Source: Candidatus Methylopumilus rimovensis (GTDB lineage: Bacteria; Pseudomonadota; Gammaproteobacteria; Burkholderiales; Methylophilaceae). From it: a DNA stretch of 64,000 nucleotides. Each line of letters starts with the position of its first letter. Position 1 is the first letter of the stretch. This document shows, piece by piece, positions 6,007 through 54,364 of this stretch. Location of the stretch: contig NZ_CP040986.1 in the NCBI RefSeq assembly GCF_006364615.1, positions 1 through 64,000 on the forward strand. Direction: 5' to 3'. The notes beneath the pieces are model-generated. The model ran no database searches. It was not told the DNA's origin and was given only the letters and a program-made list of their open reading frames with translations. The position numbers and the translations under genes were made by a program.

Positions 6007-6324
6007 TTAACGAGCTGCGCGTCTTCTTTTTGGAGCCGCTTTACGTTTAGCAGCTGGTTTTTTAGCAGCAGCTTTACGAGCTGGTTTACGTTTAGCTGGT
6101 TTTCTTGCCGCAGTTGACCTTGCAGGCGCTTTCTTAGAACCAAGACCTAAAACAGATTTGACAGGACATGAAGCTAAAACACCAGTGCCTAATAAAAATA
6201 CACCGACGATTTCATCAACCATGCCATATTCAAAAACAGAGTAACCACCAATTGCTTGGCCTAATACAGCAGCACCAACAGCAATACGAACTACTCTTTC
6301 TAAACCTTTAACGTTCTTCTTCAT
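6007..6324 (-). CDS. DUF2892-type membrane protein with Lys/Arg/Ala-rich C-terminal tail
   Basis: Residues 1-60 look like the small DUF2892 family (N-terminal MKKNV..LERVVRI, two membrane helices about 12-27 and 35-52, then CPVKSVLGL). The function of that domain is unknown; it also occurs behind rhodanese domains as in YgaP. Residues 63-105 are a highly basic tail made of K, R, A and P (AARKPAKRKPARKAAAKKPA), similar to histone-H1-like proteins. A good AAGGA stands 7 nt before ATG. It lies alone between the oxyR hairpin and prmA. The tail could bind nucleic acid or acidic lipid, but that is inference. Confidence 0.75.
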   Translation of the reverse strand: MKKNVKGLERVVRIAVGAAVLGQAIGGYSVFEYGMVDEIVGVFLLGTGVLASCPVKSVLGLGSKKAPARSTAARKPAKRKPARKAAAKKPAAKRKAAPKRRRAAR

Positions 6325-13582: not shown

Positions 13583-13714
13583 TTATTTAGCAGCTTTAGC
13601 ATCAGCAGCTGGTTTAGCAGCTTTAGCATCAGCAGCTGGAGCAGCTGGTTTAGCAGCTTTAGCATCAGCAGCTGGAGCAGCTTTAGCATCAGCAGCTGGT
13701 TTAGCAGCGTCAGC
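13583..13714 (-). repeat. Tandem short repeats encoding AADAKAAKP units
   Basis: Repeated blocks of about 24-36 nt (forward-strand text TTTAGCATCAGCAGCTGG recurs several times) encode the Ala/Lys units of the small exported protein. Such DNA is prone to slippage, so copy number may vary between strains. Confidence 0.7.
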
Positions 13715-13777
13715 AGCGAAAGCGTTTAAAGAAAGTGCGAATAAACCTGCAACTAATGAAGCGAATAACTTAGACAT
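13583..13777 (-). CDS. Small exported Ala/Lys/Asp/Pro-repeat protein
   Basis: 64 codons: a signal peptide (MSKLFASLVAGLFALSLNAFA, with AFA-AD as likely cleavage site) followed by about 43 residues built almost only from A, K, D and P in repeats of the type AADAKAAKP. AAGGA stands 7 nt before ATG. It has its own promoter-like -10, a leader with two perfect stem-loops, and a terminator, so it looks like a well-expressed monocistron. The mature peptide is probably disordered or helical in the periplasm or outside the cell. Function unknown; no catalytic residues. Confidence 0.75.
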   Translation of the reverse strand: MSKLFASLVAGLFALSLNAFAADAAKPAADAKAAPAADAKAAKPAAPAADAKAAKPAADAKAAK

Positions 13778-53570: not shown

Positions 53571-53599
53571 AAAAAACCCGGGATCTCCCGGGTTTTTTT
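53571..53599 (+). terminator. Strong bidirectional terminator between pnp and dksA-like gene
   Basis: CCCGGG-ATCT-CCCGGG (53577-53592) flanked by A6 and T7, so it works on both strands for the convergent genes. Confidence 0.93.
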
Positions 53600-53614: not shown

Positions 53615-54364
53615 TTAGCCTGCCATCTGTTTTTCACGGATTTCATCAAGTGTTTTGCAATCAATACAAAGCGTCGCTGTAGGACGCGCTTCCAAACGCT
53701 TTAAGCCAATCTCTTCGCCACAGCCAGTGCAATAACCATAATCTTGGCTTTCGATATTTCTTAAGGTCTCATCTATTTTTTTGATAAGTTTACGTTCGCG
53801 ATCACGGTTTCTGAGTTCAAGTGCCATATCAGACTCTTGACTTGCACGATCATTAGGATCTGCATATGAAGTGAGTTCATCTTGCATAGTATGAACTGTG
53901 CGATCGATATCCTGACTTAATTCTGTTTTCCATTCATTAAGGATTGTGCGGAAATGATTAAGTTGGCTTTTACTCATATAGTTCTCGCCCTTTTTAGCCT
54001 CATAAGCTCTAAATTGTTTTAAGCCTTTTTGAGACGAGCTAACTACTTTTTTAGATTTAAGCGGAACAATTTTTGCAGGTATAGGCTTCTTAGCAACAAC
54101 TTTCTTAGCTACTACCTTTTTAGGGGCTGCTTTTTTAACCACTACTTTTTTAGCTGCCGGTTTTTTCTTAGCTACCACTTTTTTTACTGGAGCTTTTTTC
54201 TTAGCAACAACTTTCTTAGCTATTACTTTCTTGGCCGCTACCTTCTTAGGAGCTGCTTTTTTAACCGCTACTTTTTTAGCTGCTGGTTTTTTCTTAGCTA
54301 CCACTTTTTTTACTGGAGCTTTTTTCTTAGCAACAACTTTTTTAGCTACTTTTTTAACTGCCAT
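53615..54364 (-). CDS. dksA: DksA with Lys/Ala-rich histone-H1-like N-terminal arm
   Basis: The C-terminal half (from about residue 107) is DksA, the RNAP secondary-channel protein that acts with ppGpp: HFRTILNEWKTELSQDIDRT, coiled-coil tip DPNDRASQESD, RNRDRERKLIKKIDETL, and a four-Cys zinc finger (YCTGCGEEIG, LCIDCKTL), ending EKQMAG as in E. coli. Residues 1-91 are new relative to E. coli DksA: two copies of a 42-residue unit (8-49, 50-91) of K, A, V, P. AGGA precedes the ATG by about 8 nt, supporting the long start; a weaker internal start at M130 exists. Confidence 0.9.
   Translation of the reverse strand: MAVKKVAKKVVAKKKAPVKKVVAKKKPAAKKVAVKKAAPKKVAAKKVIAKKVVAKKKAPVKKVVAKKKPAAKKVVVKKAAPKKVVAKKVVAKKPIPAKIVPLKSKKVVSSSQKGLKQFRAYEAKKGENYMSKSQLNHFRTILNEWKTELSQDIDRTVHTMQDELTSYADPNDRASQESDMALELRNRDRERKLIKKIDETLRNIESQDYGYCTGCGEEIGLKRLEARPTATLCIDCKTLDEIREKQMAG
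54092..54343 (-). repeat. Two tandem 126-bp units in the dksA-like gene
   Basis: Units 54218-54343 and 54092-54217 encode near-identical 42-residue blocks beginning KKVVAKKKAPVKK. Each block is itself made of short KKVVAKK-type motifs. Copy number may vary between strains. Confidence 0.85.

Follow-up and report, generated by a model that had tools for sequence, protein, structure and literature searches.

A lysine-rich N-terminal arm on DksA of Candidatus Methylopumilus rimovensis, with similar arms across Gammaproteobacteria

Introduction

Starving bacteria adjust their RNA polymerase through the regulator DksA. In the window analyzed here, the first 64,000 nucleotides of contig NZ_CP040986.1 of Candidatus Methylopumilus rimovensis, the reading frame of this protein opens with a long basic stretch before an ordinary DksA begins. 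The locus raises the question of whether this arm is really made, where else it occurs, and what it might do. That the arm persists in a streamlined genome of 1.28 Mb, where only one DksA is kept, is informative in its own right.

Results

The features of the locus are as follows.

53615..54364, minus strand: dksA, 249 codons plus stop with an ATG start, the sole DksA/TraR zinc-finger match in the genome
54373..54376, minus strand: ribosome-binding site AGGA, 8 nt 5′ of the long ATG
54086..54364, minus strand: Lys/Ala/Val/Pro arm, residues 1–93, from the translation, with a composition-type match to Pfam HC2 of 52.1 bits
54087..54348, minus strand: 126-bp tandem repeat (42 residues, 2.1 copies, 91% matches) making up most of the arm
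53978..54085, minus strand: linker, residues 94–129, from alignment with relatives
53615..53977, minus strand: DksA core, residues 130–249 plus stop, from profile matches and the 1tjl alignment
53840..53860, minus strand: coiled-coil tip, residues 169–175 (DPNDRAS), from the DP.DRA pattern as in 1tjl
53657..53731, minus strand: C4 zinc finger, Cys 212, 215, 233 and 236, from Pfam and the 1tjl alignment

The window DksA was confirmed to join about 100 extra, basic N-terminal residues to an intact core of the E. coli type. The core scored 166 bits against the TIGR02420 (DksA) cut-off of 115.5 over residues 130–238 and 47.6 bits against the PF01258 (zf-dskA_traR) cut-off of 24.9, with Pfam DksA_N likewise above its cut-off. 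Residues 106–249 align to residues 8–151 of PDB 1tjl (144 residues, E 4e-54), which we take to be DksA of E. coli, with all four cysteines in line and D-P-N-D-R-A at the acidic tip (DP.DRA) of the coiled coil, bearing out the first-pass annotation of a complete DksA with zinc finger and coiled-coil tip. The profile for full-length DksA of the E. coli type (NF008045) was not reached, at 199.6 bits against a cut-off of 289. A search of the whole 1,283,799-base single-contig genome returned this one DksA/TraR zinc-finger match. Core, tip, and C4 zinc finger are shared with E. coli DksA (PDB 1tjl, 5vsw, 5w1t, 7khe, 7khi), but that protein is armless at 151 amino acids, none of the five distinct solved chains matched is longer, and no solved DksA-like chain returned by the sequence search has an arm. 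The annotation was thus right that E. coli lacks the arm, 1tjl being aligned from its residue 8, and close on its size, given as about 105 extra residues with 1–91 nearly all K, A, V and P: the excess is about 98 residues over 1tjl or about 109 over unarmed relatives, which have about 20 residues before core M130, and residues 1–91 are K, A, V and P throughout except M1 and I48. Net charge over arm and linker (residues 1–129) is +47. The linker ends in KQFRAYEAKKGENY, which matches the ordinary short DksA N-terminus in relatives, e.g. TKQFTPYQPKPDEEY. The AlphaFold model of the protein, which is of low confidence (mean pLDDT 52.7), has helices at 132–165 and 173–205 and no secondary structure N-terminal of residue 132, with pLDDT of 34–49 in blocks over residues 1–120.

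The arm exceeded the cut-off of Pfam PF07382 (HC2; 52.1 bits against 40) as a low-complexity match and stayed below those of the NCBIfam profiles for histone H1-like Hc2 (NF038052, 50.3 of 135 bits) and for Burkholderiales H1-like proteins (NF038053, 47.4 of 80 bits). It resembles these in composition, and the HC2 match is taken to be driven by composition and probably not by homology. Such sequence is rare elsewhere: 50-residue stretches with at least 12 K and at least 25 K plus A occurred in 18 of 1971 other long frames in the window and loci L002–L173, and because at least 14 of these 18 are DksA frames of a second armed genus (g15, below), the true background is at most 4. Downstream, a hairpin (CCCGGGATCTCCCGGG, window 53577–53592) flanked by A and T runs lies between the convergent pnp and dksA genes and looks like a shared two-way terminator of the two.

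On comparison of the loci, the arm is almost certainly translated. The annotation had pointed to a good ribosome site at the long start and argued that the arm is really made; the first point held, and the second is well supported. In 28 of 29 assessable loci (12 from the genus of the window, g1, including the window itself, and 17 from g15), the long ATG follows an AGG-type ribosome site, at about equal position in the 11 other intact g1 members, with the one exception (L052) having GGAG in its place. Five of the 29 loci (L040, L042, L049, L051, L058) contain no ATG, GTG or TTG between the long ATG and core M130, yet retain the linker directly 5′ of M130, so a start at the arm is required in them. 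A 14-row alignment shows no variation at linker residues Y121, K124, E127 and Y129. Each of the two other forward frames across the arm contains 1–29 stops, compared with the open arm frame, which is open by construction since its start is the first ATG after a stop. The extension of DksA in Xanthomonas euvesicatoria is presumably lysine-rich. It is likewise N-terminal and translated, the protein having 256 rather than 147 amino acids on the evidence of peptides and start-codon mutagenesis, with a processed variant also seen, and the available part of that report gives no function for it (PMC5559785). A mis-called start, with translation starting at M130 or around residue 107 and the product lacking the arm, could appeal to a purine-rich stretch 5′ of M130 and to inner GTG, TTG or ATG codons within the arm in 24 of the 29 loci, where an inner start would in many still retain part of the arm, but given the conserved ribosome site, the invariant linker, the five loci with no alternative start and the experimental support for an extended DksA in Xanthomonas (PMC5559785), this reading is already largely refuted and scarcely credible.

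The TIGR02420 profile was sought in 150 Methylophilaceae genomes and matched in 141; arm lengths for loci include the linker up to core M130. In g1 the arm is present in 12 of 12 assessable members, window included. Thirteen g1 relatives had a match, and the 11 that are intact are all armed; at L041 a contig end interrupts the gene, yet it is lysine-rich and passes the strict arm test, while L044 is cut at the core and was not counted as assessable. No TIGR02420 match was found in g1 genomes G108 and G113. The closest named locus among the matches listed is from Candidatus Methylopumilus universalis (L094), which bears out the annotation's placement in Methylophilaceae. In g15, which is probably marine OM43 by comparison with the available part of PMC6794327, a K-rich arm of 59–133 residues is present in all 17 assessable members, 15 of which pass the strict test (L056 and L063 fail); 21 genomes had a match and 20 loci were fetched, the weak G143 being left out, and L055, L057 and L059, cut at a contig end, are excluded from the 17. 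The annotation had proposed checking whether the arm is absent in all close relatives, and these two genera show the opposite. No arm was found in 57 loci from 22 other Methylophilaceae genera, a count that concerns main copies (106 genomes with a match, 57 fetched, the unfetched main copies having frames of at most about 161 amino acids), and in these unarmed genera DksA starts about 20 residues N-terminal of core M130, as in MAEVITKQFTPYQPKPDEEYM. The genus g20, which we infer to be Ca. Methylosemipumilus from comparison with the same source (PMC6794327, in part), is unarmed, with genomes of 1.6–1.75 Mb and one fragmentary at 0.8 Mb. Among the best 78 further loci listed (L096–L173, mostly betaproteobacterial; L135 cut) none passed the strict test; the arm of L167 is shorter and of mixed K/R/T/A composition.

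A PNP tree of 30 genomes placed g1 and g15 on one side of a single branch (support 100/99), and in the DksA-core tree one change suffices for the two genera (support 82). Of 30 Methylophilaceae genomes compared, with and without the arm, 28 have dksA no more than about 260 bases from pnp (exceptions G019 and G021). These patterns would fit a single gain of the arm in place, beside pnp, in the ancestry of g1 and g15. The annotation's description of DksA as fused to an H1-like arm fares less well, as repeat growth in place at the conserved pnp-dksA locus fits better. Fusion with a separate histone-like gene was set aside as unneeded, given that the locus is kept in armed and unarmed genomes. No other frame of the genome reaches the HC2 cut-off. 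Four g15 loci (L307, L308, L310, L312) encode small stand-alone proteins of about 75–120 residues with an amphipathic-looking start followed by (KPAAKK)n, and the repeat could conceivably have been borrowed from such a protein.

Composition of the arm is kept and its sequence is not, as seen in repeat units that vary from species to species and in drift between close pairs with steady lysine (36.9% of the arm in g1, 30.2% in g15). Arm length drifts through repeat gain and loss, arm plus linker being 98–159 residues with net charge +34 to +57 in g1, and with net charge +14 to +39 at the lengths given above in g15. In the two closest equal-length pairs, arm pN/pS was 0.013/0.022 and 0.024/0.000, with zero amino-acid changes in the cores, and arm substitutions in one close pair were mostly A to V. 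A separate observation concerns codon choice over the part of the gene at window 53978–54364: AAG accounts for 118 of 551 lysine codons in g1 arms compared with 4 of 97 in g1 cores, with a small contrast in g15 (143 of 477 arm, 48 of 190 core), a pattern that would suit avoidance of long A-runs in the arm (the longest in g1 is 7), although repeats inflate these codon counts.

The arm is not special to Ca. Methylopumilus, and similar arms are common across Gammaproteobacteria. The class survey covered 143 gammaproteobacterial genomes, one per family code, of which 134 had a match; with our own genome and G197 (same order) left out, 132 families remained, and the strict K/A-arm test was passed by 44 of them. 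Loci were fetched for the 80 with long frames; the 52 unfetched genomes have frames of at most 167 amino acids, too short for the test, except the weak G333, and a few short frames may be contig-end cuts (G300 and G387 are at or near one). G428 carries its arm on the second-best copy, and in G341 the match is under the family cut-off. The 44 armed families have a median arm of 132 residues including the linker and net charge of +10 to +66. Their K/(K+R) is 0.58–1.00 in arms compared with 0.21–0.53 in cores of the same proteins, a ratio biased upwards by a test that demands lysine and counts arginine-rich arms (e.g. L211) as unarmed. It declines with GC (arm rho −0.42, p 0.005; core rho −0.61), and across armed cases spanning GC of 0.34–0.72, lysine dominance is also seen at 60–72% GC. 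AT-richness was rejected as the cause of the arm, median GC being 0.55 in armed and 0.57 in unarmed fetched loci of the class survey (p 0.36). Phage or plasmid origin was likewise rejected, no record in either collection reaching 80% cover; matches among plasmids were at best 52% cover with about 64% identity, and any arms in these collections would be masked by low-complexity filtering. Four of the 20 loci fetched in the order survey passed the arm test, these 20 being the long frames among 146 genomes outside the family (L297 cut by a contig end). The DksA-core tree has 26 armed/unarmed label changes, at least 6 of them forced by well-supported (starred) branches, which with 120 columns and 243 rows are only a rough sign of gain and loss; L056 and L063 are labelled armed there although failing the strict test. 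From recurrence across families and these label changes, similar arms have very probably been repeatedly gained and lost.

Discussion

The DksA of the window belongs to a widespread, little-described class of DksA variants, the breadth of which is the main surprise for a specialist. A lysine-rich DksA arm was not found described in the open-access PMC literature on DksA as far as its text was available, subscription papers lying outside that scope. With such tails on this protein in many other bacterial families, a well-studied protein probably has a common, little-examined extra part that is likely to grip nucleic acid. If about one third of gammaproteobacterial families have a strongly basic disordered DksA arm, promoter-finding models of stringent control may not transfer among them, and repeated gain and loss of the arm amounts to a natural experiment.

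We would give about even chances to the reading that this DksA is a normal secondary-channel factor of RNA polymerase to which the arm adds a basic, disordered tether for nucleic acid. The analogy is with AlgP and PhaF of Pseudomonas, whose KPAA-repeat H1-like tails are disordered K/P/A tandem repeats, as in the arm, and in vitro DNA binding is described for a fragment of the AlgP tail and for peptides of the KPAA repeat; clonal variation of algP repeats is the subject of a 1990 title among the references of the same paper (PMC9239181, in part). In composition the arm appears like these DNA-binding tails, which makes tethering to DNA plausible, although the tails are C-terminal, on granule or nucleoid proteins, whereas the arm is N-terminal, on an RNA polymerase factor. 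On this reading, tandem repeats would have grown, at the locus itself, into a translated, disordered, lysine-rich arm that took over from the first few residues of DksA; this arm would bind nucleic acid non-specifically through charge, most likely DNA near transcribing polymerase, and DksA would thereby stay close to the nucleoid and reach the secondary channel from a high local concentration. The globular domain of DksA touches the β′ rim helix and the coiled-coil tip extends to the active site (PMC7822876, in part). Being N-terminal, away from that tip, the arm need not hinder channel insertion, and because lineages can gain or lose it, its probable role is to tune affinity and location and not regulatory chemistry. 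The intact core, retention of the arm in g1 and g15 with none in the 57 loci of other genera, the single PNP-tree branch that sets the armed genera apart, lysine kept during drift, the excess of lysine over arginine in the 44 gammaproteobacterial arms and the low-confidence disordered model suggest a tether, while the absence of constraint on arm sequence would also suit a neutral repeat, and RNA, ribosomes or another polyanion would attract the arm equally. The effect on rRNA operons or stringent control that the annotation proposed would be a further possibility.

Two other settings for the arm were considered. Loss of ppGpp was rejected, a RelA/SpoT synthetase domain being present in 28 of 28 genomes searched, our own included. 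Compensation for lost H-NS was rejected as well, since H-NS was found in none of 28 Methylophilaceae genomes, armed or unarmed, and its absence therefore does not track the arm.

More tentatively, and at clearly less than even probability, the findings may be read jointly: DksA in much of Gammaproteobacteria would consist of two parts, a secondary-channel factor and an H1-like arm that binds the chromosome and has been repeatedly gained and lost, so that the armless picture from E. coli fails to transfer, and in streamlined pelagic Methylophilaceae the arm would have a single origin close to the transition to open water and may also serve as a nucleoid protein.

It is possible, if unlikely, that the arm is neutral low-complexity growth, in which slippage expanded repeats at the 5′ end of dksA and the product was tolerated without a selected function because the N-terminus is not needed inside the polymerase channel. 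This would be consistent with an arm sequence free to change, as in the pN and pS of the close pairs, with repeat units that vary by species and with arm plus linker spanning 59–159 residues. However, neutral growth sits poorly with retention by all assessable members of two streamlined genera, with lysine content held and lysine preferred over arginine even in GC-rich genomes, and with recurrence in 44 of 132 other families when such windows are rare in other frames. Also rather improbable is a tether to RNA or ribosomes, by which the arm would keep DksA on nascent rRNA or ribosomes and not on DNA. The electrostatics would be identical, and DksA acts strongly on rRNA promoters (PMC7822876, in part), but bacterial KPAA tails are described, in the available text, as DNA-binding (PMC9239181).

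Quite unlikely is a polyphosphate sensor, in which the lysine arm would bind polyphosphate (lysine polyphosphate modification) and link DksA to the state of phosphate supply or starvation. Of four lysine-rich P. aeruginosa proteins tested, EngA and SrmB bind polyphosphate and InfC and FadB do not (PMC12077175, in part), AlgP is located on polyphosphate granules (PMC9239181, in part), and six of the seven g1 genomes searched, our own among them, have Ppk1. However, six of nine armed g15 genomes and the g1 genome G063 gave no Ppk1 match, and a profile search of genomes 94–99% complete did not find Ppk2 either in armed G056, G080, G086, G098 and G063, in which arm plus linker is 132, 118, 91, 90 and 130 residues, respectively. 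With neither enzyme seen in five armed genomes, polyphosphate is disfavoured as the ligand, and the arm as a nucleic-acid tether remains the preferred reading. The small armed genomes in which Ppk1 was not found are G034, G046, G056, G080, G086 and G098 (g15) and G063 (g1), while it was found in all 12 unarmed genomes searched; polyphosphate synthesis appears to have been patchily lost among small armed genomes.

Other basic low-complexity proteins were also observed. In the window, 6007–6324 (minus strand) encodes a YgaP-like membrane-domain protein (PF11127) of 105 residues, about 40 of which form a K/A/R/P tail. This is a second basic low-complexity tail in the window, and HC2-type matches occur at a similar coordinate in four genus members. 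A 64-residue signal-peptide-like protein of A/K/P/D repeats, with a perfect 36-bp repeat and no Pfam match, is encoded at 13583–13777 (minus strand). At L309, in genus g4, a protein that reads as TatA-like from its sequence carries a long KPAAKK-repeat tail.
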